A stretch of DNA of 37,816 bases from a virus. The stretch's first letter is position 1; every line of letters begins with the position of its first letter. Made by a program: the position numbers and the translations under genes. The DNA is taken from the IMG/VR virus record IMGVR_UViG_3300025887_000059, positions 1-37,816 of that record, one strand, 5' to 3'. Positions 10,612 to 29,881 of this stretch are shown here, in pieces. The notes under the pieces were generated by a model. That model had not been told where the DNA came from and ran no database searches. It was given only the letters and a program-made list of their open reading frames with translations.

Positions 10612-10902
10612 CTACCACTTAGATTTATCAGCCCAATATGCCGCAGACATTTTGCCTTTAGAAATGTTTCGACCATGGCGGGCTTTAAAGCTTTTACGCT
10701 TTGCCTTCATCTTAGCCGACTCACCCGCCTTCGGTTTGCCTGCTGTCTTTGCACCCTGTTCCCCATAGCGAATTGTTTTGACTTTGTCACCCTCTTTTGC
10801 CACAACCACATGGCTCTTCTTCGGGTGGTTAGGTGTTCGCTTTGGTTTATTATAGCCTGATACTCCTGCTCTTGCTAGTCGAGGGTCTTTTTTAGCAGCC
10901 AT
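10612..10902 (-). CDS. lysine-rich small protein, last gene of the late arm
   Basis: The 96 residues are dominated by K, R, A and G. The pattern includes GVSGYNKPKRTPNHPKKSH, then an internal strand-rich piece (VVVAKEGDKVKTIRYG), then AKRKSFKARHGRNISKGK and a conserved-looking end (MSAAYWADKSKW). I recall similar proteins in many marine phages, always without assigned function. The order of blocks suggests a small folded domain, not pure low complexity. Nucleic-acid binding is likely from charge. Its start overlaps the stop of the gene before it (TAATG), tying it to the other four basic proteins. Confidence 0.75.
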   Translation of the reverse strand: MAAKKDPRLARAGVSGYNKPKRTPNHPKKSHVVVAKEGDKVKTIRYGEQGAKTAGKPKAGESAKMKAKRKSFKARHGRNISKGKMSAAYWADKSKW

Positions 10903-11177
10903 TATTTACATACCTTTCCGCCACGGTTAAATTTTTTATTAAGGTCTTGTACGCTTTTATAACTTTTGTGCATGGCTCCTTTAAACATAGGCTTTTCTTT
11001 CACAGCATATGCAGTTACTGCTCCACCTACTGTTGCACCTTTAGGCATAACAGCCTTGGGCTTTCGTTTAACGGCTTCACCTGTAATTATAGTGGTCACT
11101 GTTCTCATTGGCCCTTGTGTACTTCCAGCTTTAACGCCCTTTCTTCGAACGCCTGTTGTTTTTGTAAACATTGTCAT
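10902..11177 (-). CDS. lysine-rich small protein
   Basis: This strongly basic protein has 91 residues. It has a Thr/Lys N-terminus (MTMFTKTTGVRRKGVKAG), then VTTIITGEAVKRKPKAVMP, a short Gly/Ala hydrophobic patch (GATVGGAVTAYAV) and a KFNRGGKVCK end. No named domain. It overlaps both neighbours by one to four bases, so it is made from the same message as the other basic proteins. It may bind DNA or a virion partner. Confidence 0.68.
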   Translation of the reverse strand: MTMFTKTTGVRRKGVKAGSTQGPMRTVTTIITGEAVKRKPKAVMPKGATVGGAVTAYAVKEKPMFKGAMHKSYKSVQDLNKKFNRGGKVCK

Positions 11178-11416
11178 CTTTTCTTCCCCTTATGTAGTCC
11201 GTGTTTTGCGTGTTGCTTACCTTTCTTAGTAGCTTCACGCTTCTTTTTATTAGCTGCGGCTAATTTCTTTTTACCTGCCGCTGTAGACTTGAGCTTTGCA
11301 ATGGTCTTCTTGGGTGCATATACTTCACCAGTCTTTGAAGACTTCTTACCACTAGCCGTTGTCCATTTCTGTGCAGTCCATTTCTTTAAAGACCTTTGTG
11401 GTTTTTTAAGTGCCAT
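11174..11416 (-). CDS. lysine-rich small protein, possibly DUF5872-like
   Basis: The 80 residues contain KKWTAQKWTTASGKKSSKTG, then EVYAPKKTIAKLKS, then AANKKKREATKKGKQHAKHG. This order (W-rich basic start, YxPxKxI, then a K/R/A helix ending in GKQ) resembles a short domain I associate with DUF5872, present in phages and some algal viruses; the family name is from memory. Over a third of residues are lysine or arginine. Coupled on both sides in the basic-protein cluster. Confidence 0.7.
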   Translation of the reverse strand: MALKKPQRSLKKWTAQKWTTASGKKSSKTGEVYAPKKTIAKLKSTAAGKKKLAAANKKKREATKKGKQHAKHGLHKGKKR

Positions 11417-11601
11417 TACTTGTACCCTCCTCCTTTAGCTTTATATTGTTTAGCTAACATCTGAGCCTTACGTGCAGACCATTGACCGGCTCTTCCTCCT
11501 TTAGAGCCGGCCTTGATTCTGTTAAATAAATTCTTACGCATAGTAGGCTTAGTATAGTTACCAGCTTTATTTACCGTAGACTTCTTTTTAGCTGCTGGCA
11601 T
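11416..11601 (-). CDS. small basic protein with KPTMRKNLF motif
   Basis: This protein has 61 residues. The block NYTKPTMRKNLFNRIKAGSK is followed by GGRAGQWSARKAQMLAKQYK and a GGGYK end. I have seen this compact pattern repeatedly in short proteins of unrelated phages, with no assigned function. It looks like a tiny helical domain with positive charge. The stop overlaps the next start and the start overlaps the previous stop, so it belongs to the five-gene basic cluster. Confidence 0.72.
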   Translation of the reverse strand: MPAAKKKSTVNKAGNYTKPTMRKNLFNRIKAGSKGGRAGQWSARKAQMLAKQYKAKGGGYK

Positions 11602-12656
11602 TAGCGTCTACGTCCCATCCCCGGACGACGAGGGCCGCCAGTCATTCGAGGCTTTTTAGCTGCCGCACGTTTTTTAGCTGCTACTTTTTGAAATGCTATA
11701 GCTTTTTTCTGTTGCCCTTCTAAAAAAGATTTAGCTTTTAAGTCTTTACCTTTAGAAGATTCATAAGCCTTTAAAGCTTTTTGATATGCGGGTGTATACA
11801 TAAAAGAATCTGGTGAAGATTTGCTAGGACGCTTAGGAGGACGTACTGGCATAGTAGTATATCTAGGAGCATTTTTTGCTGGGCTTCCTTTTCTAAAAGC
11901 ACTTTTAGGCTTAGCGCTTGGACGAGTACCTGAAGCTTTCTTACCTGCGGCTTCTTTACGAGCACGTACTTGAGCAGCGGTAGTAGCTAGACTTTCTCCA
12001 GTTCTTTTAACTCTTGCTGCTTTTTTAGCTTCTGCTACTTTTCTAGCTGCCATAGCCTTTCTTGCTGCTTCTGACATAGCGATGCCGCCGGTCTTAGGCT
12101 TACCCAATTTTGGAAGACCTTTTAAAACTGGTTGCTTCTTAGATGATACTGGTCTTCCTGCTTTTGCTTTTTCAGCTATTCTTTTATAATATTCAGCTTT
12201 ACCTTTCATCCTTTTATCAGCTTGAGAACCGGGCTTAGGCTTGGATACTTTTGGAAAACCTTTTAAAACTGGTTGCTTCTTAGATGATACTGGTCTTCCT
12301 GCTTTTGCTTTTGCTGCTTGTGCTCGTAAAGCTGACTTAGCAGTTTGCTGCTGTGCATATTTTTTCTGAGCTGCTGTAGGTGGCTTAGCACCCGGTCGAG
12401 TGCCGGGGCGTGGCTTAGCTTTTGTTGGAGACTTAGCATAGCCTGCTGGCTTAGCTTTATTTTTAGCGTAGCCGCCTGCTGGCTTAGAACGGCGTGTAGG
12501 CGCTGAAGGGCCACCTGCAACTCCGCCTGTTGGATTTGGAGCTGGTCTATTAAGCGGGTTGCCTCCGCCAGTAGACTTACGAGGGGTGCGTGTGTTTTGT
12601 TTAGGGCCTGCGGGTGCCGGACGTTTTTTCTTTGCGGGCTGAGGGTACATTGCCAT
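11601..12656 (-). CDS. long lysine/alanine/proline-rich, histone H1-like protein
   Basis: The 351 residues are nearly all K, A, P, R, G, S and T, with no hydrophobic core until short helices near the end. The composition is like eukaryotic H1 or bacterial AlgP/Hc-type tails and predicts a disordered DNA-condensing protein. It holds an internal duplication: AKAGRPVSSKKQPVLKG occurs twice, 47 residues apart. A good ribosome site (AAGGAAA) precedes its ATG. It starts the run of five basic genes after the holin. Role unproven: DNA compaction in the capsid, host nucleoid takeover or a structural filler are all possible. Confidence 0.72.
   Translation of the reverse strand: MAMYPQPAKKKRPAPAGPKQNTRTPRKSTGGGNPLNRPAPNPTGGVAGGPSAPTRRSKPAGGYAKNKAKPAGYAKSPTKAKPRPGTRPGAKPPTAAQKKYAQQQTAKSALRAQAAKAKAGRPVSSKKQPVLKGFPKVSKPKPGSQADKRMKGKAEYYKRIAEKAKAGRPVSSKKQPVLKGLPKLGKPKTGGIAMSEAARKAMAARKVAEAKKAARVKRTGESLATTAAQVRARKEAAGKKASGTRPSAKPKSAFRKGSPAKNAPRYTTMPVRPPKRPSKSSPDSFMYTPAYQKALKAYESSKGKDLKAKSFLEGQQKKAIAFQKVAAKKRAAAKKPRMTGGPRRPGMGRRR
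12108..12312. repeat. 141-bp-offset direct repeat in the histone-like gene
   Basis: Bases 12108-12171 and 12249-12312 are identical at 63 of 64 positions by eye; the difference is TGGAAG versus TGGAAA. The offset of 141 bases is 47 codons, so the frame is kept. Synonymous sites are conserved too, which points to a recent duplication or gene conversion and not to protein-level selection alone. Confidence 0.82.
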
Positions 12657-12661
12657 AATAT

Positions 12662-13033
12662 TTATTTCCTTAGATTCATTAGTGATTTAGCTCCACGTAT
12701 ACCAAAGGAGCTTGAGATTGCGATAAACAGTAGATACTGATACCATTCGGGTAGTCCTGATAGTGCTTCAAAGCCTAGCTTTGTTCTTACAATTACATCC
12801 GTGTCATTCATCGCAATAGCATACCCAATCATAAACACAGGTATGGCTAACACAATAGTCCAAAATTCATCTTTCCAGCTCGACGCAGACGCATCAGCCA
12901 TCTTAGATTCCCAATCAGCATCATTCTGTATTACAGACATTTTTGCTTCATGCTTCGCTTGTTTCTCCTCAGCCTTGTTTTTAAAGTAACCTCCAACAAG
13001 ATTGGTTACTGGCCCTATTAATTGTCCAAGCAT
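12662..13033 (-). CDS. holin, GTA_holin_3TM-like
   Basis: The 123 residues begin with MLGQLIGPVTNLVGGYF, then a long charged helix (about residues 20-50), then KDEFWTIVLAIPVFMIGYAIA (first clear membrane segment, about 54-74). Next come GFEALSGLPEWYQYLLF and a final helix ending FGIRGAKSL. The W-rich KDEFW start of the helix and the LPxWY segment fit the three-helix holin family of gene transfer agents (PF11351). It would permeabilise the inner membrane for the endolysin encoded nearby. AAAGGAG sits just before the ATG. Confidence 0.7.
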   Translation of the reverse strand: MLGQLIGPVTNLVGGYFKNKAEEKQAKHEAKMSVIQNDADWESKMADASASSWKDEFWTIVLAIPVFMIGYAIAMNDTDVIVRTKLGFEALSGLPEWYQYLLFIAISSSFGIRGAKSLMNLRK

Positions 13034-14913: not shown

Positions 14914-15273
14914 TTAGTAGCACCAAGCTACAGGAGTCTTACCATCGTGAATAGCCCGGTCGTCCACATGGATAAATGTACGAGCCACTCCAACGCCGCT
15001 AAAGCCAAGGGCGAACGCCTGTTTAATAATCTCGTATCGTTGATTGCCACCAACCGCTTTGATGTCTGCTGCATAACCTTGGGCATGTGTTCCGGGTTTC
15101 TCCTTACGTGCTTCTATTGAATGTGATGGGCTACGATAGCCGCTAGTAATGATGAAGGGAAACCCGCAGGCTTCCCGAAGTTCATCTAGTCTGTGGATAA
15201 AGTCCACGTTCATTTTGTTTTCGCCAGTTTCTTGGCAGTTAAAGTCTTCTAGTTTAAAGTATTTAAATTCCAT
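14914..15273 (-). CDS. endolysin, M15-family peptidase
   Basis: The 119-residue protein carries the M15_3 zinc peptidase pattern: ITSGYRSP (R47), GTHAQGYAADI (H63 and D70 as zinc ligands, spaced HxxxxxxD) and TFIHVDD (H102, with D104 beside it). These enzymes cut peptide cross-links of peptidoglycan. There is no signal peptide, so it needs a holin; candidates lie at 12662-13033 and 29882-30052. The size is normal for a single-domain phage M15 endolysin. Its start overlaps the stop of the giant virion gene (TAATG). Confidence 0.86.
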   Translation of the reverse strand: MEFKYFKLEDFNCQETGENKMNVDFIHRLDELREACGFPFIITSGYRSPSHSIEARKEKPGTHAQGYAADIKAVGGNQRYEIIKQAFALGFSGVGVARTFIHVDDRAIHDGKTPVAWCY

Positions 15274-18200
15274 TATGCTACGTCTCCTTTTAAGTTAGCT
15301 CTAAGGGCTGCTATTGTTCTACCGCTAGTAGGCTTAACTTTTCTTGGTTGAGTCAATAAACTAACTGGCTCGTCCTTAGCTACTTGTTGGGCTTGAGCTG
15401 AGATAACTTCTCCGCCTTCAGCAAACATAGGCAGTCCTTTTTGTATATCTTTTCTCATTGCGTCTGTAATTTCTAACGTAGGCAGTGTGACTGTACTATC
15501 ATTTTGTTTATACTCTACCATTTTAATTTCAACACCATACTTTTTAGCAAAGTTATTTTTCCAAAGCTTCATTAAAGTTTTGTCATAAAAGTCTAAGAAC
15601 TTTTTACCTTCACCAGCCTCTATGTTTTTGTTGTTGCGTTCAGCTTGCATTCGACCTGTAGTTAAAGCAACTTGGTCATATCCTTCATCTGTTGCGGTAA
15701 TCATAGCTTTACGAAGACCTTGTAAAGCCCAACGTTTCTCAGATTTAAACGGTAGGTCTGGTACTTTCTCAATTAATTCTTCTGCGGATTCCATTGTTGC
15801 AGAATCATAATCTTCTCTGGTTGCGTAACCTTTTGCTTTACCCGCCTGCTGTGCATCAGACTGAATCTCGTCTATTAACAAAGTTTTGTTAAACGCATCG
15901 TCTACTTGTTCAGCATCTGCAAGTCTTACGTGAGCTACAGGGTTTGCAATGTCAGGAAAGTGAGAATGCTTATAATCTTTGTTTACTTTCTTAAACTTAG
16001 AGGGTAGTGAAAATACTAACTCACGATAGTTTAAAGTATCGGCTCCTTCAAAAGCATAGTCCAAGTGCGTTGGAATAGTAACAAAGTCTCCTCCTGTTGC
16101 GCTTCCTGCGTTAAACTCATCCATAAGCTCGTCATACATTCTATCCCAAGCCATTGGGTCATCGCTATCAAGCAAGTCATCCATCATTTCTTTTTCGAAA
16201 GGTTTGTTTTCAGTCAGCCAGTCGTCAAATAAATCAAACTCAGCATCGTCTGATAAGTCATCTAAAGGCATATCCTCGTCTACCGTTTCTTTTCTTTTTA
16301 CGTGCCGTCCCACATTAACATCAAAATCAAAATCGCTTTGCCCGAAAAACTCTTGAACTTCTTCTTTTGTTACCGGCTTGTTGTTACCAAACTTTTCGGT
16401 AGCTCCTGTCCAGTCTAGTTCTTCTTCAGTTACTTTAGGGTCTTTCTTCATAGCGTTTAAATGTGCTTGACCCGGCTTAGGCTTAGAGCCTGTCAGTTTT
16501 TGTGAAGCTTTCTCTGCTGCGCTGTAGAATCCAGAAGTTTTCTTAGGTGCAAAAGCTTTTGTAATTCCGCTTACAAGGCTGCCAATTGCATAGTTCTGTC
16601 TAGGGTCAGCCGCATCAAACTTAGCTGAAGTAGTAAGTTTAAACTGTTCTGGTTCAAAAAGAATGTAAGAATATTCCGACTCTCCGTTAAAACCAAACTC
16701 AATTTCATTTTTATACTTAACAGAATCAAAACCAAATCGTTGCAGTTCTGTGCGTAAATCAATGTTCAACTCATTTTTCATTAAGTCCGTTTCTAATACA
16801 TCTACTAAAGTTTCTTTAGGTCTAGTTTGAATATCCATAGCACGAGAGCGCAAAGCTTTCATTCGTTCAATAGATGCTTTAGTTACTTTACCGCCAGAAT
16901 CTTCAACGTTAGTAAGCAGCTCGTTGATTCCATCCTTAGAAGCTAGAATTTTATCTCCAGCCCAAGTGTCTACAATAGTTTCTCCGTTGTACACTAAAGG
17001 TTTACGAGCACTAATATATCCTGCTTGCATTTCATTTGCAGGAAGAACATAATCTGAGCCGTGCTTATCTTTAGCTACTTGATTAAGCTGTTCAAATTTC
17101 TTTTCGTACTGAGTTTTTGTAGGCTTAGAGTTTTTAAAAGTTTTATATATATTTGCAGCTCTGTCAGCAGGATATAAATCAAACAACATATCTCTTAACT
17201 TAATAGTGTTTGCAACGCCTTCTGACCCGCCGTGCATTCCCATTTCTCTAGCAAACGGAAATGCTACATTAAACTCGCTAGTCTTAAAAGTTTTAATAGA
17301 GCGATAAATTATTTCTTGAGTATCTGACTTTGCAACGTGCTTCTGCAAAGCTTTAGTTCGTTGAGCATCAGTAAGACTATCAGCTATGGTTTCTTGAGCG
17401 TCTAATCTAGGAGCTTTAAACTTACTAAAGTCTACGTTGCCATTAGCTGCAATCTTAACAATAGCATCTCTAGCAATAATAGGAGCACCTTCTTCAGAGA
17501 TAAGCGGCTCTTTAGTTTTAATAACAGCAGTCAAAAAGTCGTGAGTTGCGTCTAAACTTTCTTCATCAAAGTTAGCTTTAGATGCAGCAGCTCGGTCAGC
17601 TTCTGTAATGTTTATATTTACTTTTTCGTAAACACGCTTAACGCTTTCAAGCTCAGAAGACACAGCAAGCTTTAGAACATCTTTACTATTACCAACATCT
17701 TTAGTTTCTGCAAGCGTTTGCAGTGCAAAAATTTGGTCGTCAGTATAGCCTAAATCTCTCTGGTACTCAGCCATATTTTCACTAGCTTTAGCAGGGTCTG
17801 ATTCATTTAAACCTTTTTGAAAGTTGCTATTATTTTTTGCATCGTCTAAATAGCCTAGCTTAGCGTTAAGCATTGTAGAAATATTAGCTTCTGCTAACTC
17901 GCTTGCTACTGCTTCGTTAAGTTGTATTTTACCGCTTTGTAACTCTAGACCTACAGCGCCTTCAATTTTATTAGCGGTCTGCTGCAAAGCTTTGTCGTTA
18001 ATAAGACCTTTAGTAGAACTCTTTAAAGTTCCTAGCATGTCTCCACTTAAAGCAACCGGCAAAGATTCTTCTATTGGAGCTACGTTTGGCTTTTTAAACA
18101 ATCCTAAAAGTGCAGAGCTTGCTTCAGCAGCTACCTTGCCACCAGCATTAAATTGTAACGTTTTTGGTTTTTTATCAAACTCTTCAATGAATCCACCAAA

Positions 18201-21200
18201 TACATCTTTCTGTGCGTCTCTTAAACTACCCTTGTATCGACGAACATTATCTTCACCAATTAAAGTGTCTCCAAAATAACTTCCAGAAAGAATAGGTACT
18301 TTACCGCCTACTGTTGGAATAATGCCTTGTTGGATTAACTTTAACGTATCTGAGGCTGCGGGGCCAAAAGGCATTGTAGCATAAGCCAAGTTGCTTTTAG
18401 CGTACTTAGAAGCAGTTTGAGCACGTTGGAAACTATCTAGCAGTAAACCATTACCACCCCAACGAGCAACTGCGGTGCCTAAAATCTCATCTAAATCTTT
18501 ACCACGTTCACTTTCACCACCAGTACGTAAGTAGTTAGTCCATCGAGCCATACCAGTCATAATAGCTCCGGCAGCTACAATCTTACCACCGTTACGTGTA
18601 GGAGCTTTAATAAGAGACTTAGCAGCGCCTTTCAGTACGGTGTTACTAAACGCCGCAGGATAACTAAGAAGCTGAAAGAACACAGCAGTTTTAGGGTTAG
18701 AGAACAGCAGAGGCTTTAAGCCTGACATTGCAGTAGGCTGAAGAACTACAGAGTTTGTGTAACGTGCAACGCCTCCCAAGAAATCATTCTTGTAAAAATC
18801 ATCGGTTCGTTTGGCTCCGCCGTCATACCACTTAGTAGCCTGTTTAAAATCAATACCCAGCTCAGCTAGTTCGCCTGCAAGTATTTCTCCATCTCTGTCT
18901 AAAGGCTTTCCCTTATATCGTGTAGCAAGTTTTTCAATGTTTTCGTTTACAAGAGACTTGCCGCTTGAGTGAGAAACATTCTGTACAAACTTAGTCCACT
19001 GGTCTAGCATGTTTAAACGGAAGAACTTATTACTTGCTTTCTGCAAGCCTTCAGTCATCAACTCGTCGCCTGCAAGTCTATCACCAACTTGAGCAAGTGC
19101 TTGGTCTACGTGAATACTAAAGTCACGCATTTCTTTAAGAGCTTCGTTAGCTGTTAAGCCGTTTTTGTTCCTTAGCTCTGACTCAAGGTCTTTAGTAATA
19201 CGCTTGTGAGACTGCTGCATAGCGTCTGCAAAACCTTTAACAGAGTTACGTACACCTGCTTTTTGAATGTTCAAAAATACTTCTGTTAAACTCGATACAG
19301 TTGCTAGGCCCAAAAGAGCCACACGGTTTGTAAAGCTATAAGCATCTACAGCAAGCTGTGTTTTGTTACCGTAACGCTCCATGCCTTCACCAGTTGCAGA
19401 ACGATAAAGCTTTTCAAGCTGTCGTTCAATTTTAGGTGAAAACTCTTGGCCTGCTTCTTCCATTTCTTGTCTAATACGATTTACATAAAAACCTTTAAAG
19501 TCATCAAAATTATTAACGCCTAGTACACGATGCTTAGCAATAGACTTACCTGCTTGGAAAGTGTAAGCATGTAAAGAACCAAGAACGTCGCTGTTTAAAA
19601 ACTCCTCAAAGTCTGCGTCATTACCGATAGTATTAATCTTACGCTTAGCACTAAAGAAGTGTCCACCACCGCTACCTGCGTCTACTTGATTTTTTACATC
19701 AAGCATGTTTTCTACAGTAGCTTTAGCTTTAGTTCGAGTCATTCCTGCTTTTGTTACAAACTTTTCAATTAGTCCTTTTTTATTTTTTTCAATAGCGCTT
19801 CGGCTCCACATACGAGGAACATAGTTTTCTTGTAGTTTATCAATAATGCCAATGCTCTGAAGTTTAACACCCATTTCATTATACAGCTCTCTAGTTTCTA
19901 AAGCAGCTCTGTTAATTGCTGCATTAGTAGTATCATCGAACCCGGAATGTTTAAGAGGTTTATTGCTTCTCATGCTTTTACTTAAAGCATCATTAATGTC
20001 TGTTGCAAGTTTAGTGTCTAGCTCACTCAAAGAAAGAGAATCCACAATAGAACGGAAACGTTCGTTAAACTTACCAGTAACTTCACGCTGTACTTCAGAC
20101 AAATCTTTTGCAACTACTTCGTCTTGAATTTTATATTTAATGCCAAACTCGTGGCTTAGTTTTTTCTGTAGTTGTGCGGCAGTCCCAGAAAACTTAGTTA
20201 TTGGAGACAACACGCCTGCTGCTTTGCCATAAAAGTTTCCGGTTAAATCTGAAGCTACTGTATATAGACCTTGTTTAATAGCGCTAGTACGGCCTTCAAC
20301 AGTAGTTTCGTTATCTGCTGCTGCTCTAATGCGAGCTAAAATTTCTTTCTTAGTTGCTTCACCGCCACCTAAATCTTCAGCAAACTTTGTAGCTGCTGCG
20401 TCTAAAGCCTCATCATCCATATCAAAAGTACGTGCAGTCGCATCGTCAGTACCGTTTACAGTTTTAGCTGTTGCACCTTCAGGGCCGCTAATACGTAAAG
20501 CTTCATCTACTACAGAACCGCCTGATGCAGGAATCCACTCACCTTCTACACCTTCGTCAAAAGCTTTTGAGGCTTCAGGAGCAGGAAGTTCCTTACGTGG
20601 CTCAGTTGATTCTCTAAATGCTTTATTACCATGCTTAGAGTTTGAATATAAACCAGCGCCCTTACTAAGTGCAAAACCAAACGTACCACCTATTGCGCCA
20701 CCTACAACTGTTTCTAACGCACTATAGTCTTCTCTCCCTTTAATGTCAGCAGAAATATCTAACTCTTGCATTATGTGAGAAGCAGTTAAACCATGACCTG
20801 TACCAACAAGCGTAGAAGCTTTAATAGGATTTTTAGTTGCAGCGGCTACCGAAGCTTTAACAGCTTTAGTTAATGCGTTTTGACCTGCTTGCTGTGCTGC
20901 TCGCCTAGCTGCTACAGTTGCTGCGGTTCCTGCACCAAACGTAGTTACTCCTGATAGTAGTCCACCAACAGTTGCTAAACCTTCAGGGCTAAACACTACG
21001 TCAGAAGCATAGTCTTTAATTGCATCAAAAGTTTCGCCTGAGCCTGTTATAGAAGCTTTGTCCCAACGAGTTTTCATAACTCTGTAAGCTCTTTTAACTT
21101 CTTCTGGAGCATTTTTTAAAGAAGCAGCCAAGGAAATAGGAGCGCCTATTCGAGCTGTTAAGTCTCTCATATACTCAGCAACATCATCAGTCTGCCCGGT

Positions 21201-21431
21201 AGATGCTTGGTCAATTGCATAACGACCTACACCTTGGGTTTTAGCCAAGTAGTCTGTAAGGACTTCATAGTTTGCTAAAACAGTTTCATCGTTTTCATAA
21301 TCTGTTACTGAATACTGTGATGGAATATAAGCTCCTTCTCGAACTGCTTCTTCTTGTTGAGCAGTCATGGAAGAGTCTGTTATTCCTTCAGCAGTAGAAT
21401 CAAGTGCAAGTTGATATATATTATCTGACAT
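15273..21431 (-). CDS. giant polyvalent internal virion protein (2052 residues)
   Basis: The N-terminal ~270 residues contain two Gly/Ala-rich hydrophobic stretches (about 150-190 and 240-260, for example VVGGAIGGTFGFALS) suited to membrane insertion during DNA ejection. Near residue 535 is ENYVPRMW, a motif I associate with large marine-phage internal proteins. The C-terminal third looks like a polyvalent protein. About residues 1470-1590 resemble the ART-PolyVal fold (GFDSVKYKNE, then SYILFEPEQFK). About 1790-2020 resemble polyvalent-associated domains (LVFSLPSKF, HVRLADAEQ, LLIDEIQSDAQQ, VALTTGRMQAERN, ITDAMRKDIQKGLPMFAEGG). Position and size match the T7 gp16 slot, but I see no lytic transglycosylase motif. 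It is probably packaged and injected. Enzyme activity is inference. Confidence 0.75.
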   Translation of the reverse strand: MSDNIYQLALDSTAEGITDSSMTAQQEEAVREGAYIPSQYSVTDYENDETVLANYEVLTDYLAKTQGVGRYAIDQASTGQTDDVAEYMRDLTARIGAPISLAASLKNAPEEVKRAYRVMKTRWDKASITGSGETFDAIKDYASDVVFSPEGLATVGGLLSGVTTFGAGTAATVAARRAAQQAGQNALTKAVKASVAAATKNPIKASTLVGTGHGLTASHIMQELDISADIKGREDYSALETVVGGAIGGTFGFALSKGAGLYSNSKHGNKAFRESTEPRKELPAPEASKAFDEGVEGEWIPASGGSVVDEALRISGPEGATAKTVNGTDDATARTFDMDDEALDAAATKFAEDLGGGEATKKEILARIRAAADNETTVEGRTSAIKQGLYTVASDLTGNFYGKAAGVLSPITKFSGTAAQLQKKLSHEFGIKYKIQDEVVAKDLSEVQREVTGKFNERFRSIVDSLSLSELDTKLATDINDALSKSMRSNKPLKHSGFDDTTNAAINRAALETRELYNEMGVKLQSIGIIDKLQENYVPRMWSRSAIEKNKKGLIEKFVTKAGMTRTKAKATVENMLDVKNQVDAGSGGGHFFSAKRKINTIGNDADFEEFLNSDVLGSLHAYTFQAGKSIAKHRVLGVNNFDDFKGFYVNRIRQEMEEAGQEFSPKIERQLEKLYRSATGEGMERYGNKTQLAVDAYSFTNRVALLGLATVSSLTEVFLNIQKAGVRNSVKGFADAMQQSHKRITKDLESELRNKNGLTANEALKEMRDFSIHVDQALAQVGDRLAGDELMTEGLQKASNKFFRLNMLDQWTKFVQNVSHSSGKSLVNENIEKLATRYKGKPLDRDGEILAGELAELGIDFKQATKWYDGGAKRTDDFYKNDFLGGVARYTNSVVLQPTAMSGLKPLLFSNPKTAVFFQLLSYPAAFSNTVLKGAAKSLIKAPTRNGGKIVAAGAIMTGMARWTNYLRTGGESERGKDLDEILGTAVARWGGNGLLLDSFQRAQTASKYAKSNLAYATMPFGPAASDTLKLIQQGIIPTVGGKVPILSGSYFGDTLIGEDNVRRYKGSLRDAQKDVFGGFIEEFDKKPKTLQFNAGGKVAAEASSALLGLFKKPNVAPIEESLPVALSGDMLGTLKSSTKGLINDKALQQTANKIEGAVGLELQSGKIQLNEAVASELAEANISTMLNAKLGYLDDAKNNSNFQKGLNESDPAKASENMAEYQRDLGYTDDQIFALQTLAETKDVGNSKDVLKLAVSSELESVKRVYEKVNINITEADRAAASKANFDEESLDATHDFLTAVIKTKEPLISEEGAPIIARDAIVKIAANGNVDFSKFKAPRLDAQETIADSLTDAQRTKALQKHVAKSDTQEIIYRSIKTFKTSEFNVAFPFAREMGMHGGSEGVANTIKLRDMLFDLYPADRAANIYKTFKNSKPTKTQYEKKFEQLNQVAKDKHGSDYVLPANEMQAGYISARKPLVYNGETIVDTWAGDKILASKDGINELLTNVEDSGGKVTKASIERMKALRSRAMDIQTRPKETLVDVLETDLMKNELNIDLRTELQRFGFDSVKYKNEIEFGFNGESEYSYILFEPEQFKLTTSAKFDAADPRQNYAIGSLVSGITKAFAPKKTSGFYSAAEKASQKLTGSKPKPGQAHLNAMKKDPKVTEEELDWTGATEKFGNNKPVTKEEVQEFFGQSDFDFDVNVGRHVKRKETVDEDMPLDDLSDDAEFDLFDDWLTENKPFEKEMMDDLLDSDDPMAWDRMYDELMDEFNAGSATGGDFVTIPTHLDYAFEGADTLNYRELVFSLPSKFKKVNKDYKHSHFPDIANPVAHVRLADAEQVDDAFNKTLLIDEIQSDAQQAGKAKGYATREDYDSATMESAEELIEKVPDLPFKSEKRWALQGLRKAMITATDEGYDQVALTTGRMQAERNNKNIEAGEGKKFLDFYDKTLMKLWKNNFAKKYGVEIKMVEYKQNDSTVTLPTLEITDAMRKDIQKGLPMFAEGGEVISAQAQQVAKDEPVSLLTQPRKVKPTSGRTIAALRANLKGDVA

Positions 21432-21449: not shown

Positions 21450-23516
21450 TTATGTAGCTGGAGTATGGCGGTCTGGACGCTTGCCTGTTGAAAAGTATGC
21501 TTCTTTTTCTTCGTCCGTTAAATCTGCAAGTTCGGCTTCGCCTAAAGTATAACCATATTTTTTAGTGTAAGTATTATACAAGTCGTCGTATGTTTTTTGC
21601 CTTGTGTTAATTCTTTTTTCTAGCGCATCTATCATACCAAAAGTTACCTGACTTGTTCTATCCTTTGAAAACTTGTCAAATCTCTCTATGTCGCCGGTTA
21701 GGTTTTTATAAGCTTTTATTATTGTTCTATATTCCTTTCGCTGTGCCCTTCTTGTCCCATCTGTATCTATTTTGTTTTCTTTATTAGCGTGTCCTGCGAA
21801 TTCAGGAGGAAGGCTTAAAGGTGCTATACTTTTAACTCCGCTTACAGTTGTTGTTGTTGTATCGGTATCAGAGTCCTCATTATTATTATTATTATTACCG
21901 CTATTGCCAGAATTATTGCTTAAATATGTAAGGGCTGCTTTAACTTTATCTGAAGGAGAAAAACTTTCAAAGTCTTTAGGGTTTTTAAATATTAACTCTA
22001 AAGCATCCATTTTAGCTTTAACTACGTCTTCGTTAAGTGAACCTGAAAAATAATTGTATCCGGGCTTACCCTTAACTCCACGCTCACCTGCTACTGTGCT
22101 GAATAAATTAATTCTTTGAGCATCATCCATGTCTACTAAAGAGTTATAAAGTTTTGTATTGTCGTCAAAAAGTCTTGCCATTGAAGTTTTACCATTTGTT
22201 AGCTTGCTGCTACTAACTAGCGTATCTATAGCAAATAAAGTCCCAAACGTATTATTATGTCCAAAAGCATTTACACCTCCTTTATTCGCTGCTTGTTCTA
22301 CAGCTTGTTGAAGATATATTTTACGGCCCATCTCTGCTGAAGCCCATCCTTCGTTACGTGCAGTAATGCCAGCCATAACCATACCACGAGAAAAAGCTTC
22401 TTGCTTTTGTACTAACAAGTCTGCAAATCCGTCATCGCTATTTGATTCTAGCTTACCGTCAGTTTCTATTGAAATTCTTTCTCCAAAAACTTTATTCAAA
22501 GCTGCAATAGAATCTCCCGGTGCTTGATGAAACTCCTGTACTCCTAATGTAACTTGGTTTTTAGTCAACATACTTGCGCCAGTATTAAAATCTATACTTC
22601 TATTTTGACTTGCTGCACTGTAAGGAACATAACTACCGTTAGGGCCGATAACGTGTACTGTTATATCAGTTACCGTTTTACCGTTTACTCGACTTTGTGT
22701 TGTAATAGGATAACCTTTAACTGTTTCTTGCTCACCAGTAACAGGATGCGTAGTAGAAATGTCTACAGCATCACCTATAACAGGAGCTGGAACACCGGGG
22801 TCAGTAGGTAGGTTAGTAGCAACATACTTAGAAAGAACAGCGTTGCGTGTTTTCTTCCAAGCAGAACCATAGTCTTTTTGAAACTGTTTAGATTCTGTAA
22901 CCATGTTGTCGTTGATTAAATTGTGTAAATCAGCGTCGGGGTCTTTACCAAACAGTCTACTTACTCCTTCACCTATAAAACCACCCACAGTTTTATCAGG
23001 CGCAGCGTCTTTTTGTTTTTGTACATACGCATCAGTGTTACCTGAGTTTAGATACTCTTGCGTAGCTGCAAACCTATCTTCAAGAGCTTTTACTCTTTTA
23101 GGCTTTAAAGCTTTAACAGATGTAGTTAGCCAGTCGTTAAAAGTAGTTTGGCTGTAACTTCCACTTGAATAAGTTTCGTGCCATTTGGCAGTTAAGCTTT
23201 CTCTTAGTTGTTTATCAGCCAAGCCTTCTATTCCACCACTTTCATTTTCAGCTTCTTGAAACATTTTAATATCTTTATTTGCTAGGTCGTAACCAGTCTT
23301 AACTGTCATTCTTGACCGCAGCAACTGTTCGTCATTTAAGAATTTTTGTTGTCTAGATTCTAAAGCACTATTAGCCACACCAATAGCTACTTGCATACCT
23401 AACTTTTTCCAAGCGTTTCTTTTAGCGTCTTTTTTATTGTCTCTTGCTATCTTGTCGTTTCTTTCACGAATACCAGCAAGTAAACTTTGTCCATATGCAA
23501 CTGAGTCTTGTTCCAT
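21450..23516 (-). CDS. putative internal virion (ejection) protein
   Basis: The 688 residues are mostly helical and soluble. The N-terminus is charged (RERNDKIARDNKKDAKRNAW) before an Ala-rich amphipathic helix (QVAIGVANSALESRQQ). A region near residues 540-560 is a run of N, S, D and T, a flexible linker, and the last 120 residues form a charged helical domain. No enzymatic motif. Its place between the giant protein and smaller virion genes matches the T7 gp14-gp15-gp16 ejection block. The role is inferred from order. Confidence 0.6.
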   Translation of the reverse strand: MEQDSVAYGQSLLAGIRERNDKIARDNKKDAKRNAWKKLGMQVAIGVANSALESRQQKFLNDEQLLRSRMTVKTGYDLANKDIKMFQEAENESGGIEGLADKQLRESLTAKWHETYSSGSYSQTTFNDWLTTSVKALKPKRVKALEDRFAATQEYLNSGNTDAYVQKQKDAAPDKTVGGFIGEGVSRLFGKDPDADLHNLINDNMVTESKQFQKDYGSAWKKTRNAVLSKYVATNLPTDPGVPAPVIGDAVDISTTHPVTGEQETVKGYPITTQSRVNGKTVTDITVHVIGPNGSYVPYSAASQNRSIDFNTGASMLTKNQVTLGVQEFHQAPGDSIAALNKVFGERISIETDGKLESNSDDGFADLLVQKQEAFSRGMVMAGITARNEGWASAEMGRKIYLQQAVEQAANKGGVNAFGHNNTFGTLFAIDTLVSSSKLTNGKTSMARLFDDNTKLYNSLVDMDDAQRINLFSTVAGERGVKGKPGYNYFSGSLNEDVVKAKMDALELIFKNPKDFESFSPSDKVKAALTYLSNNSGNSGNNNNNNEDSDTDTTTTTVSGVKSIAPLSLPPEFAGHANKENKIDTDGTRRAQRKEYRTIIKAYKNLTGDIERFDKFSKDRTSQVTFGMIDALEKRINTRQKTYDDLYNTYTKKYGYTLGEAELADLTDEEKEAYFSTGKRPDRHTPAT

Positions 23517-23518
23517 GT

Positions 23519-24133
23519 TTATTGTCCTTCAGGTGGAGCCATTAGGCTAGGTTGTTGTGGAGCTTCGGTTTCTTCAGGTACTGGTTCTGTAGGAGGCGAC
23601 AACAAGCTATCTAGCTGTGGAAGAGCTTCCATTTCAGACTCCATCTCAGAAGTTACAAAACCTTGCGGTATGAAGTTAGCGTTCTTGGCTGATTTCCTAA
23701 GAGTTTCTAAACGGTCTTCTTCCATCTTAGCTCCAAAAACTTCATCCTCTGCGCCTTCTGAATCAATCTCAACATCTATATCTAAACGTTCAGCAAGTGC
23801 AATTAACATATAAGCTAAGGGTTCAGCAGTCATAAGCATCAAGTCAGGATTCATTGTGCCTTCTGAAAACTCTTTAAACAGAATAGTTTGTACCATGTTC
23901 ATTACCGGCACACCTTCTGACAGTCCCATCATAAGACTTGGATATACTTCTTCATCAGTTACAAAGTCCCACAAGTATTCATTAATCTCGTGAATATTTG
24001 TAAACTTTGGGGCTTGCTCATAAGGTGCAGGAGCATCAGGGTCGTTTGTTAAAGACTGTCCGGGAATAGGTCGTCCCATTTTACTTCTTTCAGTTTGATA
24101 GTCTTCAAAATTAAAAGCTTCTTTTGTAGCCAT
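23519..24133 (-). CDS. virion-region hypothetical protein, acidic
   Basis: The 204 residues have a Pro-rich start, a helical centre (INEYLWDFVTDEEVYPSLMM, then PLAYMLIALAERLDIDVEID) and a P/E/Q-rich disordered tail. It overlaps the preceding gene's stop by one base and ends two bases before the next start. I think related short acidic proteins occur beside internal virion proteins in other marine podoviruses, but I cannot assign a function. A chaperone or assembly-partner role for the basic neighbour at 24133-25395 is a reasonable guess. Confidence 0.58.
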   Translation of the reverse strand: MATKEAFNFEDYQTERSKMGRPIPGQSLTNDPDAPAPYEQAPKFTNIHEINEYLWDFVTDEEVYPSLMMGLSEGVPVMNMVQTILFKEFSEGTMNPDLMLMTAEPLAYMLIALAERLDIDVEIDSEGAEDEVFGAKMEEDRLETLRKSAKNANFIPQGFVTSEMESEMEALPQLDSLLSPPTEPVPEETEAPQQPSLMAPPEGQ

Positions 24134-25395
24134 TACGCCATTCCTCCTCGTCTAATATTCATTTGTTCTTGATAGATACTTGCACCATAGCCATAAGGAT
24201 TTTGTTGCGTGTAAGATGTTGGGTTAATAGACATCTGCATTGCTCGGTCATTTATTTCAGGAGAACCGTAGTCTCGAATACCAGCAGACTGATAAGCTTC
24301 GACATAAGTGCCGTAGCTTACAGGAGCTTCTGGAACTTTTACGATTCCGGCTTCTTGAGACAAGCGTGTCGTAACATCTTGTTTTAGCTGCGCTCCTACA
24401 TCTGTAATTGCTTCAACACCATAATCTAAAGCTTCGTCTGTAAGTGCTCGACCTAAAGACCTTCCGTCTTTAAACTCTGTGTACTTTTCTTTTACAGCGT
24501 CCACAGCTTCGCCGGGAAGTGCAGCTATTTTCTCGCCAAAAGTTTTTTCTACAGCTTTTGTTTGGAACTCAATAGGGCTTTTAACAGTCCCTGAGTAAGA
24601 GTCTATAGTGCTTTGTATATTATTTATACCGCCTTTAGCATCGCCCAGATTTGAAAAGTCAACTTCGCCGGTAGGCTTAAAGTTTTCAAAAGATTTGCTT
24701 ATATTATCTATACCGCCTTCCATGCTTTGAGGGTCTAAAAGACTTCCTCCAGTCCTACCAATTTGTCCCGGAATAGTTCCGTCGCCAGTTAAGCCTGTAG
24801 CCTTGTCAATAACGTTTTGTTGCTTAGCTGTAAATATTTTCTTAGCGTTTCCAAACTCTTCAAGACCGCCATTAAAAGCTTCAGTAATAGCGTTAATGTT
24901 TTTATCAATACCTGATTGCACTGTGCTCCAAGCAGACTTACCTGTACTTGAGTCTACAAAAAAACTATCCGAAGCATTAGCAAGCTTAGGAAACATCTTT
25001 TCCATACCGGGGATTTTCTTTAGTGCAGTTTTAGTAAACTCACCTAAAAAACTAGATACTCCGTCAGTTACTGTTTTAAAAGCCGATGTTCCTGCTTTTG
25101 CAAACTTAGCGCCTGACTGAAGAATTTTACCCGCTGTTTGTGCAAGCTTACCGCCTTTAGCTAGAAACCCTGTTACACCTTTAAAGGCTGTGCCGATAGA
25201 AGCAGAAAAGCCGTTGGCTAACATCCCTCCTATTCCCGGAAGAATAAAAGCCAAGCCAAGTTGACCTACAATGCCAATCTTGTTCATAAATTTACCAAAA
25301 CTTTTAAAGGCTGACTTAATACCTTTACCAATTTTCTTGAAAGCGCTTTTAACTCCGCCTTTAATTTTTTTCCAAGCTTTGCTGAGAAATCCCAT
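24133..25395 (-). CDS. putative internal virion protein with membrane-active N-terminus
   Basis: The 420 residues start with repeated basic amphipathic units (WKKIKGGVKSAFKKIGKG, then IKSAFKSFGKFMNKIG), then a Gly/Ala hydrophobic segment (about residues 42-75: GLAFILPGIGGMLANG). Further Lys/Ala/Phe helices follow. Such a start looks like an antimicrobial-peptide-type membrane helix and fits a protein that helps form the ejection channel. The rest is helical with a Tyr/Gln-rich end. It sits in the ejection-protein block. No enzymatic domain. Confidence 0.6.
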   Translation of the reverse strand: MGFLSKAWKKIKGGVKSAFKKIGKGIKSAFKSFGKFMNKIGIVGQLGLAFILPGIGGMLANGFSASIGTAFKGVTGFLAKGGKLAQTAGKILQSGAKFAKAGTSAFKTVTDGVSSFLGEFTKTALKKIPGMEKMFPKLANASDSFFVDSSTGKSAWSTVQSGIDKNINAITEAFNGGLEEFGNAKKIFTAKQQNVIDKATGLTGDGTIPGQIGRTGGSLLDPQSMEGGIDNISKSFENFKPTGEVDFSNLGDAKGGINNIQSTIDSYSGTVKSPIEFQTKAVEKTFGEKIAALPGEAVDAVKEKYTEFKDGRSLGRALTDEALDYGVEAITDVGAQLKQDVTTRLSQEAGIVKVPEAPVSYGTYVEAYQSAGIRDYGSPEINDRAMQMSINPTSYTQQNPYGYGASIYQEQMNIRRGGMA

Positions 25396-25431
25396 TTTAA
25401 TACCTTTAGTTTTAATTAGTTATTTAGATGT

Positions 25432-28400
25432 TTATTTAGATACTTCATCGACCCACTTATAAGCGTCTGCACTATTCTTTTCTGCAATCTTTTCATTACC
25501 AATTGCTGTTGCAGTTAATTGAGCTTTACGTTGCTTTTCATTTTCAAAAGCTTGACGAATATATGCTGCTTCGTCTCTAAGCTGCTGCCATACCTGCGTC
25601 AACTCTTGTGACGTTAAGTTAAAAGTCATTTGAGCGTTTTGCATGTTAGCAGCATTTTGCGCTGCGGTATCAGACAAGTTGGCTTGTCGTCGCCACTGCT
25701 TATTAGATTGCTCAACTGCCTGTGCGTTTGAAGCGTTCCACTGGTCTCGTGCTAAGTCTTGAGTCTCGTTAAACTTTGCAATGTCTGTTTCGAGTTGTGC
25801 GCTAAACTGTTCAGCTTGTAGTTTATTGCCTGCGTTTAAAGCTGCAATACGGTTCTTTTCAGTAGTATTGAATTGGTTTCTAGCTGAGTTAGCTGTCGAA
25901 TTATACTGGCTAATCTGCGTATTAAGATTCTGCATAAACTGGTCAGCTTGCTGTTGATTGGCTGCGTTAAACTGTCTAGCTGCGTTTGTCGCAGACTGGT
26001 CGCTTAACATAGCTTGTTGTTTCTGCTGAGCTGATAATATAGTTGCTTGCTGCTCGTTATTTAAATTAGCCATATCCATCTGCAAGAAAGCCTGTGCGTT
26101 TTGAACTGCAAGCTTAGCATTCTTATCTAGATTAGCTAAGTCCAGTGAAGCCATTGAACTAGCGTTTAGCATAGCGGCTTGTTGGTCAGCATTAAACTCA
26201 TTAGCTACCATAGTTTGCATAAACTTACTGTTAGTCAACTCAACTTGCTGAGCTGCGTTAAACTTAGCTAAATCAATTCCAGCATTAGTTTGTGCGTTTA
26301 CAACTGCTCGTTGTTGGTCAGCATTTAACTGAGCTTGGTTCATCTCAGAAGCAATCTTACCTTGAAGTAAGTTAGTTTGCAAGCGCTTGTTAAGATTAGC
26401 TAGTTCTGTTTGCTGTGCGGCATTTAAGTTGTCTGAAGATGCTTGGTTTAGAGCAGACAGATTAGCTAAACGCATCTGTTGGTCATTGCTCAAGTTAGCT
26501 AAGTTCATCTGTTGCTCAAACTCTGCATTCTTAGACAAGAAGTCTGCTGCAATTTGTTTGTCCTGAGACGTAGCGTTTTGAATAGCGGCAGCATTATTTT
26601 GAGCAATAGGCAGAGCACTTTGAATAATAGCATTAAACAAAGCATCACGACCAATGCTAGAGGCACTCATACCACGCTTAGCTAAATTACCTTCAACCTT
26701 AGCAAGAATTGGTCTAGCCCATGCAGGTATTTCGCCATCTTCCATACCTGCCATCAAAGATTCCATCTGAGCACTCATCAAAGCTTCTTGAGGCAAGCCA
26801 GACAAAGTAGTCTTAATATCTTCTGGAAGGCTATCCATTTCATCAGCAATTAACTGAGGATTATCTGCAAGACGCTTAGCAATTTCTTCGTCTTTTAAGC
26901 CTTGGTTTCTTAGATTCTTAACTACGTTGTCTTTACTAATCTTACGTTTTTCAAGCTGGTTGTACTCATACATACTCATAATTTCAGCAGCTTCGCCGTC
27001 TGGAGCAGGCTCGCCTGTGATAGCTTCACGAGTTTTTGCTTCAGCGTCTGCTGTTTCAGCTACAGTAGCTTCTTCACCAGTTACTTTTTTAACATAAGAA
27101 GCTTTATTAACATCATAAACTACTTCGTTAGCCAGAGCTTCTGCTTCTGCTTCTTCGTCTCTTTTAGCAGCTTCAGCTCTTTCTGTAAGTTCAGCATCAT
27201 CTAACTCTGCTTGAGCTTCATCGCTTACTGTGCCTTCAGCTCCTACAACAGCGTCTGGTGTGCCTACTGTTTTGGCGTTTACTTTAGCGGCTGTGTTATC
27301 TGTAATAGCGTCAACTTCGTCTACTTCTTTTTGCTGTTCTGCTATGACTTCGTCAGCTACAACACTTTCTGCTGTAAGCACTGAAGCATCGTCAAGAGTT
27401 TGAGTCTCTTCTTCTGAAGTTGTAGTAAGCGCTTGTCTTTCTGCTGCATCACCAAACTCTTCATCCCACTCATACTTATCTTTAAGATAGTCTGTACTTG
27501 TTTGACCGCCTCTATATGTATTAGGGTCTGGAGCATCTGGAATAATATCACTAGCTCCACTTGTTTCTACTTCAACTTCTGGAGTATTGTAGCCCGGCCC
27601 AGTTACTTTTACAAGAGGTTCGCCAGATTTGCCCTTGCCTACAACATCAACCGACCCTTCGCCCACGTTTCTGTCGCCATCTACAGAACCAGTTTGAGTT
27701 GAACGACCGTAACCTGTACTTTCTTCTTGATTATTTGCCACACTATTTACCTTTGTTATTGCGCTTCCGGCAGGAGATTGACCTGCCGTAGAATTAGGCG
27801 TTCCACCGGGGCCGCCTCTACCTTGTGTTCCGCCCATATTACTATAGCCACCGCCACTTAAAATTTCAGAGCCATCTGGCAGATTAACTGTCCACTCCGG
27901 TGGGTCTCCGCTTTCCCAGTTTGCAGGGTTCCAAGGGTTTTCATCCCACGAGCCAATAAACTCACCTATGTCATTAAAGAGAGTGCCGTCAACAATAGAA
28001 GCCCCCACTCTAATAGTAGGAGACATCATTGCTATGTCTTTAATGCCTGACCAAAGCTTTGCAAACGTGCCTTCGCCTTCAACAGACATGTCCATGTTTT
28101 CGTCATATTCAGCCTGCGTAGAACCGTCTTGACCTACAGCACCGGGGCCAGAAGGTCTCCAGTCAGGGTCTCCTGAAGGCCCGGCATCTACGTCACTGTC
28201 TTTACGTGCGCCTTTTTGTGGAAGAGGCTTCTGCTCATACACTGACTTGTTGTTGTCGCCAAAACGAGCGTCAGCGTTTCCTGTGCTTTTGCCAGTTTCT
28301 TTTCCTGCGTCAGCGCCTTCAGCTTCAGGTTGAGTTTCTTGCTCTGAGGGAGCTAAAGGTTCTAAAGGCTGCGACTCATATACAGGAGCTGAACCATCTT

Positions 28401-28848
28401 TACCTTCGCTTACAAGCACAGCATCTTTAGGAGTGTTTTCTTCTTCCCATGCAGCTAAATCGTCTTTATAGGCTTTACTTGTTTTGCCACCCGGGTAGTC
28501 ATTAGCGTTAGGCTTACCTAGCTTTTCGTCTAACTCTTCTTGTTCTTCTTTTTCTTTTTTCTTTTTCTTCTCTGTCTTTTTTGACTTAGTTTTCTTCCCG
28601 CCAGAATTACCTGCGCCTGAAGGAGCTTTAGGGCCGGGGCCACCCGAAGTGCCTCTCGAAGGGCCTCTAGGCTCGTAGCCACTCATATCTACACCACCAC
28701 CGGAGCCACCTCTGCTTCCTGTTACAATGACTTCATTTACAGGAGCGCCGCCACCACCACCGACACCACTGTATCCGCCAGAATTAAGTTTAAGACGTTT
28801 AGCTTGTAATTTTTTTAAAGCTTTAGAGGCTCTAGTTGATTTAGACAT
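25432..28848 (-). CDS. large repeat-rich virion protein (1138 residues)
   Basis: Three parts are visible. Residues 1-110 are Gly/Ser/Lys rich (including a run of alternating K and E). Residues 110-640 are acidic and largely disordered, with a duplicated motif (PNANDYPGGKTSKAYKDDL near 112 and PDPNTYRGGQTSTDYLKDKY near 438). Residues 690-1120 hold GEIPAWARPILAKVEGNLAKRG, then SSIGRDALFNAIIQ, followed by many NAxQQxxLANLN-like helical repeats. The repeats predict a long coiled or trimeric rod. I believe the WARP and SSIGRD blocks recur in marine-phage structural proteins. It could be a tail fibre, a head fibre or an ejection protein. It overlaps the glycosyltransferase gene by eight bases. Confidence 0.65.
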   Translation of the reverse strand: MSKSTRASKALKKLQAKRLKLNSGGYSGVGGGGGAPVNEVIVTGSRGGSGGGVDMSGYEPRGPSRGTSGGPGPKAPSGAGNSGGKKTKSKKTEKKKKKEKEEQEELDEKLGKPNANDYPGGKTSKAYKDDLAAWEEENTPKDAVLVSEGKDGSAPVYESQPLEPLAPSEQETQPEAEGADAGKETGKSTGNADARFGDNNKSVYEQKPLPQKGARKDSDVDAGPSGDPDWRPSGPGAVGQDGSTQAEYDENMDMSVEGEGTFAKLWSGIKDIAMMSPTIRVGASIVDGTLFNDIGEFIGSWDENPWNPANWESGDPPEWTVNLPDGSEILSGGGYSNMGGTQGRGGPGGTPNSTAGQSPAGSAITKVNSVANNQEESTGYGRSTQTGSVDGDRNVGEGSVDVVGKGKSGEPLVKVTGPGYNTPEVEVETSGASDIIPDAPDPNTYRGGQTSTDYLKDKYEWDEEFGDAAERQALTTTSEEETQTLDDASVLTAESVVADEVIAEQQKEVDEVDAITDNTAAKVNAKTVGTPDAVVGAEGTVSDEAQAELDDAELTERAEAAKRDEEAEAEALANEVVYDVNKASYVKKVTGEEATVAETADAEAKTREAITGEPAPDGEAAEIMSMYEYNQLEKRKISKDNVVKNLRNQGLKDEEIAKRLADNPQLIADEMDSLPEDIKTTLSGLPQEALMSAQMESLMAGMEDGEIPAWARPILAKVEGNLAKRGMSASSIGRDALFNAIIQSALPIAQNNAAAIQNATSQDKQIAADFLSKNAEFEQQMNLANLSNDQQMRLANLSALNQASSDNLNAAQQTELANLNKRLQTNLLQGKIASEMNQAQLNADQQRAVVNAQTNAGIDLAKFNAAQQVELTNSKFMQTMVANEFNADQQAAMLNASSMASLDLANLDKNAKLAVQNAQAFLQMDMANLNNEQQATILSAQQKQQAMLSDQSATNAARQFNAANQQQADQFMQNLNTQISQYNSTANSARNQFNTTEKNRIAALNAGNKLQAEQFSAQLETDIAKFNETQDLARDQWNASNAQAVEQSNKQWRRQANLSDTAAQNAANMQNAQMTFNLTSQELTQVWQQLRDEAAYIRQAFENEKQRKAQLTATAIGNEKIAEKNSADAYKWVDEVSK

Positions 28849-29881
28849 TTATGTGTTCCTTTGCTGTGGAGCTTTGTATTGTTTTTAAAAATTTATAGTT
28901 TCTTTGTACAGCACTTTTCTTAGCGTTTCTAGGAAGCTTAACAGCTACCGTTTTTACTTTATGTACATAAGGAGTAGTTAAGTTGTAGTCTTCTCCTACG
29001 TAATTAATTGGATAATCTATCCTGAGCTGCGGGAGCTTAACGTTTTCGTGCAGCTCTCCAGCTTCTTCCATTTTTTCTAACTCAACTAAGTAAGCGTCCA
29101 TCCACTCATAATCAGTACCAAACTGAGATTCTACCATTACAGTCCCTGCGGTTCTTTCGTCGTACAAGTAAGTTGCAGGTTTTTCGTCTGTAGAATAAAA
29201 AGTTAAGTTACCAAGCACTGCTTCGTTTTTTAACTTAAACATTTGTAAAGTATCTTCACCGATAATTAACTCTTCGTTGAATCTGAACTTAGCTGCTTTC
29301 CTGCTGAGCCATGTTACACGACAGTGCATTTCACGACCCTGCGAATACTTTTGATGTTGGGTATAAAACTTATAGTGTAAGTCTTGGAAGTACATAGACT
29401 TCTCTTGGCTTAATCCTACTTCTTCTCTAAACATTGTATAGTAATCAGACCTTAACAACGTAGAGTAACTTACAGTAAAAGGATTTATAGCTTCAACTTT
29501 GTCATCTATAACTCTTAAAGAGTTTTGATTTATCAAGCATACTGCGTCTGGAGGAGTTTTTGATTTAGCCAGTTGCTTATACATCCACACGCCGTGGGGA
29601 GTTAAAACATCGTCGCCGTCTATCATTACGCAGTAATCGTTTTTAGACTCTTCAAAAATATCTAGTACAGAGTTTTTTCCTTTTGACGGCGTTCCGTTGC
29701 TTTCTGTAATATAATATTCAATTTTATTTTCTATGCAAAACTTTTTAGCTGCTTCGATATAGTTTTCATCTAAACTGTTTATAACTACCACAGCATCTTC
29801 TGGTTGAATATTACTGTGGTCAGCGTCAAAATGTCTTACAAGTGCACCATAATCCGTCGATGTCAAAATATAAAATTGCAA
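28841..29881 (-). CDS. family 2-like glycosyltransferase (GT-A fold)
   Basis: The 346 residues show a GT-A core: an alternating beta start (MQFYILTSTD, then AVVVINSLDEN), CVMIDGDDVLTPHG with the metal-binding DGDD at 88-91, and FNEELIIGEDTLQ with GED at 208-210, where family 2 enzymes keep the catalytic base. No membrane helix, so it is a soluble sugar transferase. The start is TTG at 29881, chosen because AAGGAG lies six bases upstream and the codon abuts the previous TAA. It sits among virion genes, so it may modify a phage structural protein; it could also alter host surface sugars. Donor and acceptor are unknown. Confidence 0.78.
   Translation of the reverse strand: MQFYILTSTDYGALVRHFDADHSNIQPEDAVVVINSLDENYIEAAKKFCIENKIEYYITESNGTPSKGKNSVLDIFEESKNDYCVMIDGDDVLTPHGVWMYKQLAKSKTPPDAVCLINQNSLRVIDDKVEAINPFTVSYSTLLRSDYYTMFREEVGLSQEKSMYFQDLHYKFYTQHQKYSQGREMHCRVTWLSRKAAKFRFNEELIIGEDTLQMFKLKNEAVLGNLTFYSTDEKPATYLYDERTAGTVMVESQFGTDYEWMDAYLVELEKMEEAGELHENVKLPQLRIDYPINYVGEDYNLTTPYVHKVKTVAVKLPRNAKKSAVQRNYKFLKTIQSSTAKEHINV

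Follow-up and report, generated by a model that had tools for sequence, protein, structure and literature searches.

Among described viral systems, ascovirus P64 offers a working analogy to the locus reported here, being a DNA-condensing basic protein thought to organise the packaged genome, for which binding and virion abundance have been demonstrated (PMC6163548). DUF5872 (PF19197), a family with members in algal giant viruses and elsewhere, is a single two-part protein. Tlr6f/DUF5754 is a small uncharacterised viral protein found across phages, polinton-like viruses and giant viruses (PMC4642659, PMC12220804). Fusions of portal, MuF and InPase parts are thought to be packaged and injected (PMC5512222), and LC-MS/MS of purified virions has detected the portal protein ORF012 of cyanophage CL131 (PMC6293099). 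Furthermore, the genomes of cobaviruses and Zobellviridae consist of two arms, with lysis genes followed by virion genes (PMC6775973).

The present study describes a cassette of five basic genes in a viral DNA of 37,816 nucleotides (IMG/VR record IMGVR_UViG_3300025887_000059; the whole stretch is hereafter the window). The protein families concerned have each been catalogued, and PHROGs 17747, 14910 and 7595 are listed as of unknown function. In the open-licence papers searched, we found no statement that treats these three PHROGs as a unit, and no description of a DUF5872 split into two genes (P61 and P80, below), of its reversed host fusion or of a late phage cassette that links it with Tlr6f-like proteins.

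Five basic genes close the late arm

The window is arranged similarly to the cobaviruses and Zobellviridae. The early arm (primase/helicase, DNA polymerase, Cas4-type exonuclease, MazG, kinase, ribonucleotide reductase) lies on the plus strand and the late arm on the minus strand, and the two converge near 10.6 kb, where no strong terminator or RNA structure was seen between them. The major capsid protein is nearest to those of Pelagibacter phage HTVC115P (56%) and other HMO-2011-like phages. Since the record is classed as linear and no terminase gene was found in it, it is probably incomplete. The cassette forms the 3' end of the late arm, past the M15 endolysin and a holin-like gene and facing the early arm, and comprises five translationally coupled ORFs that occupy 10612-12656:

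14914-15273, minus strand: M15 peptidase endolysin (context of the cassette)
12662-13033, minus strand: holin-like gene immediately before the cassette; PHROG 2524, GTA_holin_3TM below threshold
12656-11601, minus strand: P351, 351 aa; rich in K, R, A, P and G, H1-like low complexity; orphan
11601-11416, minus strand: P61, 61 aa; core; PHROG 17747; read as the N-terminal half of DUF5872
11416-11174, minus strand: P80, 80 aa; core; PHROG 14910; read as the C-terminal half of DUF5872
11177-10902, minus strand: P91, 91 aa; basic orphan between P80 and P96
10902-10612, minus strand: P96, 96 aa; core; PHROG 7595; last gene of the late arm

Three of the junctions are TAATG (1-nt overlap) and one is ATGA (4-nt overlap), and AGGAGGAGGG lies upstream of the P80 start. 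The five proteins have pI values of 10.8-11.7 and net charges of +17 to +83; among the 36 listed genes of the window, these five, which are contiguous, are the only ones whose net charge exceeds 11 per 100 residues. The sequence-only reading, which had proposed five consecutive basic proteins at the end of the late arm, is thus borne out by coordinates, coupling, charge and contiguity.

Lysine richness alone is weak evidence, since A-rich DNA alone gives about 23% K+R when the cassette strand is shuffled and then translated. The case rests instead on open frames, the lack of acidic residues, coupling, homologues and pN/pS. The open stretch runs to 355 codons, where 500 dinucleotide shuffles averaged 77 and did not exceed 143. 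Against near relatives, pN is 0.03-0.17 and pS 0.64-0.85 for P96, P61 and P80. These three proteins are under strong purifying selection, and the shuffles together with pN/pS rule out an A-rich-DNA artefact as the source of the cassette ORFs.

P351 and P91 are orphans. Their only relatives found were in L157, the single other copy, which is 100% identical over 6 kb and is therefore a fragment of the same phage. P351 contains an 84-bp direct duplication (about 12088-12171 and 12229-12312, 92% identical) encoding KAKAGRPVSSKKQPVLKG(F/L)PK. P351 had been called H1-like, which holds for its composition; it does not hold at the level of families, since none of the five proteins matched Histone H1, HU or other known nucleoid proteins in Pfam or NCBIfam. 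With its repeats and low complexity, P351 recalls ascovirus P64 by analogy, not by any shown sequence relation.

P61 and P80 as putative halves of DUF5872

P61 carries the motif KAGxKGGxxGQWSARKAQxxAxxYKxxGGGY and P80 the motif QxSLxxWxxxxWxTxSGxxS...YxP, and both match their PHROGs over nearly the full length (P61, PHROG 17747, E 1.4e-37; P80, PHROG 14910, E 8.3e-17). The P61 and P80 sequences of the window themselves gave no match to the DUF5872 profile at E up to 10. However, the profile was matched by 8 of the 19 members of the P61 set (best E 7.1e-7), by 2 of 32 P80 relatives (best E 3.2e-5) and by 22 of 27 relatives in which P61 and P80 are fused (best E 1.5e-6). Because P61, P80 and fused relatives match DUF5872, P61 and P80 appear to be the two halves of this family, with the window sequences lying below detection. 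Whereas DUF5872 is a single two-part protein, the window would hold the halves as separate coupled genes. Eleven loci of the first viral set carry the two as a fusion, and the pattern of split, fused and reversed forms (see below) is a strong sign of two proteins working as one. The expectation of five different proteins needs correction accordingly for P61 and P80, which are better seen as halves of one protein. In another locus (L138:8847-10091), P80 carries about 330 extra C-terminal residues with repeated GG-(M/L) motifs; by eye this part resembles marine-phage structural proteins, and it has no family match.

AlphaFold predicts a compact fold for the P61-P80 fusion (pLDDT 89.6, pTM 0.61) and a folded P96 (pLDDT 79.3, pTM 0.66). 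The core proteins, in which W, Y, Q, S and P positions are invariant, are predicted to be compactly folded rather than floppy polycations. Searches of the PDB by sequence and by fold gave no usable relative and no recognised nucleic-acid-binding fold, which for the P61-P80 fusion or P96 shows nothing by itself. An avidin match of P61 (2c4i, E 6e-4) was set aside as chance, as no stretch passed on its own. In BFVD, several viral proteins matched the fused model, among them a DUF5872 protein of CeV-01B that aligned with both halves (E 3.2e-3, probability 1.00; TM 0.51/0.55 over 127 columns), a modest similarity. BFVD also holds a 1022-aa ParB/sulfiredoxin phage protein (A0A6J5PCY7) with a P61-type domain inside.

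P96 and its relatives

P96 has the motif (R/K)xSFxARHxxxIxKGKxSAAYWAxKxKW and matches PHROG 7595 over nearly its full length (E 2.1e-42). Among its relatives, 10 of 18 match DUF5754 (PF19058; best E 1.5e-4) and 5 of 18 match DUF6321 (PF19846). The window P96 gave no DUF5754 match at E up to 10, nor did a direct search of the window. From these profile matches, the P96 family seems to resemble Tlr6f/DUF5754 and DUF6321, the window P96 differing by a phage-specific N-terminal part. A P96-like segment is also present in CL131 ORF012 (residues 535-604, 44.7 bits), placed between Phage_portal_3 and the InPase and Mu-F domains. It is internal to a large protein, whereas the window P96 is free-standing at 96 aa, and it need not mean that a standalone P96 is packaged.

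Linkage, gene order and position

In annotated phages, P96 occurs in 48 records, P61 in 17 and P80 in 12. P61 and P80 stand together in 30 of 32 flanked viral loci, always on the same strand, and P61 precedes P80 in 79 of 80 loci; they are adjacent in 44 of the 80 and separated by basic genes only in another 20 (64/80 in sum). In a second set of 78 loci, picked by the P61 motif alone, the P80 motif was found on the same strand within 3.5 kb in 71 and on the opposite strand in none. P96 lies within reach in about half of the loci (14/28 and 20/32), and the trio occurs as P96-P61-P80 (37) or P61-P80-P96 (26).

In close relatives with an equivalent late-arm end (L012, L013 and L083), the endolysin and the holin-like gene are followed by the core; L012 has P61, a 47-aa basic gene, P80 and P96, and lacks P351 and P91. 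Other basic genes, or none, occupy the P351 and P91 slots in the closest relatives. The cassette is therefore a fixed core of P61, P80 and P96 with changeable basic inserts, P351 and P91 being lineage-specific genes inserted around it. That all five travel together as one set is contradicted by these orphans and by the differing slots; a linked set does exist in a narrower form, with P61 and P80 near-inseparable, P96 joining in about half of the loci, and P91 and P351 outside it. Other basic genes are enriched beside the core (121 of 359 neighbours versus 82 of 1084), a count in which related loci enter more than once, so that its P value overstates the effect. Small basic families recur in the core-side slots (L082, L096, L024, L122 and others), for example a 63-aa HYLRDGTHFKGKTHK type, an 89-aa KRDYKKELNWEKKKKPKR type and GGMAKKK repeats.

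The position of the cassette differs among lineages. It lies between the portal and scaffold/MCP genes in L087, L096, L014, L016 and L028, between TerS and TerL in L115 and L147, before TerL in MEP401, upstream of TerS/TerL/portal in HMO-2011 and ctYwJ313, and at the end of the late arm in the window and in P12053L (P96 only). These places are for the most part late or on the head side; in the window the cassette comes after lysis genes, not head genes.

Bacterial and SAR11 chromosomal copies

Fused P61-P80 genes are also present in the chromosomes of Myxococcus, Corallococcus, Fibrella, Spirosoma and Occallatibacter. The common domain order is a lysine/alanine-rich or arginine-rich H1-like tail, then P61, then P80; the order P351-P61-P80 in the window matches it, in one phage and not as a trend. 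The fused gene was found in 18 of 27 genomes from the genus of Myxococcus eversor, where some matches cover part of the model, in 7 of 36 from the genus of Spirosoma oryzae and in 12 of 99 sampled from the SAR11 family. In L209, one of the soil-bacterial cases, the domain (22.5 bits against DUF5872, below the 27.5 cut-off) is fused to Rho_N (25.6 bits, cut-off 24.9) and to a sub-threshold SAP. Rho_N and SAP are nucleic-acid-binding types. In five genomes checked, the bacterial copies are single and lie on long contigs with conserved synteny; given this synteny and the metabolic neighbours, we judged prophage remnants unlikely. A search of five host genomes for P96, run without a positive control, found none.

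In SAR11 chromosomes the fusion is reversed (P80-P61). The gene (L218:5740-6156, also L263:10155-10571) is flanked by SDR and TspO genes. Nearby are CFA synthase and probable DUF1365, DUF3833 and amine-oxidase genes, the last three labels coming from reading the sequence. This neighbourhood is similar to the singlet-oxygen (RpoE) genes of Rhodobacter, in which cfaS and RSP_1087-1091 respond to photo-oxidative stress (PMC7074977). On the strength of this likeness, the SAR11 group around the fused gene looks like a photo-oxidative-stress gene group.

Candidate functions of the cassette

The sequence-only reading had suggested a DNA-condensing or virion-packaged nucleoprotein system. Part of this can be kept: the set is late and basic, and the fusions, the neighbourhoods and the CL131 segment indirectly favour a nucleic-acid role. 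The five do not form one set, and with predicted folds and invariant residues the core is not made of simple condensing polycations. The fusions to H1-like tails, Rho_N and SAP, the head and packaging neighbourhoods and the P96-like virion segment make a nucleic-acid role the best reading, and we give about even chances to a late nucleic-acid-binding module that acts at head filling or travels with the DNA. In such a module, P61 and P80 would be a split two-domain basic protein of the DUF5872 type, probably in one complex, and P96 would be grouped with the Tlr6f/DUF5754-like small viral proteins. The core, translated late as a coupled series, would bind the new genome, or nucleic acid generally, through folded domains and lysine-rich tails; it may act as DNA enters the head or accompany the DNA, organising or protecting it locally. 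The bacterial fusions have their H1-like tail on the same chain; in the window, P351 would provide it. Two points speak against the module: no nucleic-acid-binding fold was recognised, and the cassette changes place between lineages, coming after lysis genes in the window. In the open-licence literature, we found no virion proteomics of a phage with standalone P61, P80 or P96, and papers on HMO-2011-type or cobavirus virion proteomics and on lysine-rich phage proteins held no description of the cassette.

The main rival is a late host-directed role (RNA, ribosome or nucleoid binding, takeover or stress protection) of unpackaged proteins, the phage mimicking a host stress protein. SAR11 and soil bacteria carry fused P61-P80 as a syntenic chromosomal gene, and the resemblance of the SAR11 neighbourhood to the singlet-oxygen genes of Rhodobacter (PMC7074977) points the same way; since the SAR11 copy lies beside TspO and near CFA synthase, a cellular stress role without DNA contact is possible. 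However, the cassettes are late and often within head or packaging modules, a P96-like segment is part of the CL131 virion protein, and the host gene occurs in only 12 of the 99 SAR11 genomes, so that we consider this role rather unlikely. The same head-side positions could instead mean that the core proteins are helpers of assembly or packaging whose partner is capsid, portal or terminase and not DNA, their charge serving contact with acidic proteins. Cassettes frequently adjoin TerL, portal, scaffold and MCP genes, the W, Y, Q, S and P residues are invariant, and a P96-like domain sits within a portal-MuF protein. Yet bacterial homologues, which have no capsids, carry H1-like tails and Rho_N/SAP fusions, and gene order relative to the head genes varies; such helpers seem decidedly improbable.

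Net charges of +17 to +83, pI values of 10.8-11.7 and the many non-homologous basic genes exchanged in the core-side slots are what one would expect from an unstructured, protamine-like set whose charge alone would neutralise the packaged DNA. For the core this is very hard to reconcile with the compact folds predicted for P61, P80 and P96, their strictly conserved non-basic motifs and their strong purifying selection, and we regard it as highly improbable; for P351 alone, a charge-only role could still hold. Returning to the nucleic-acid-binding module, its P61/P80/P96 core appears to be an old, widely travelling set, fainter in giant viruses. A bolder and unlikely extension is that DUF5872 and Tlr6f/DUF5754 are partners in one ancient viral nucleoprotein system common to marine phages, polinton-like viruses and giant viruses; bacteria, including the SAR11 hosts, would keep its DUF5872 part as a fused chromosomal gene. 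If true, the phage cassette would be the missing functional link between the two families. As both are neighbours in phages of culturable marine bacteria, their role can be tested in simple systems. Since SAR11 chromosomes and their phages share these domains, one may also ask whether a host DNA-handling protein was copied by phages or the copying went the other way.

Other late genes of the window

Upstream in the late arm, five consecutive proteins (21450-29881; 688, 204, 420, 1138 and 346 aa) have no PHROG match at E 0.001. Between them and the endolysin, a 2052-aa protein (15273-21431) matches PHROG 7348 ('endolysin') across nearly its whole length and is probably a giant internal virion protein; the relatives L012 and L002 have proteins of 2400-2560 aa in the same late region.
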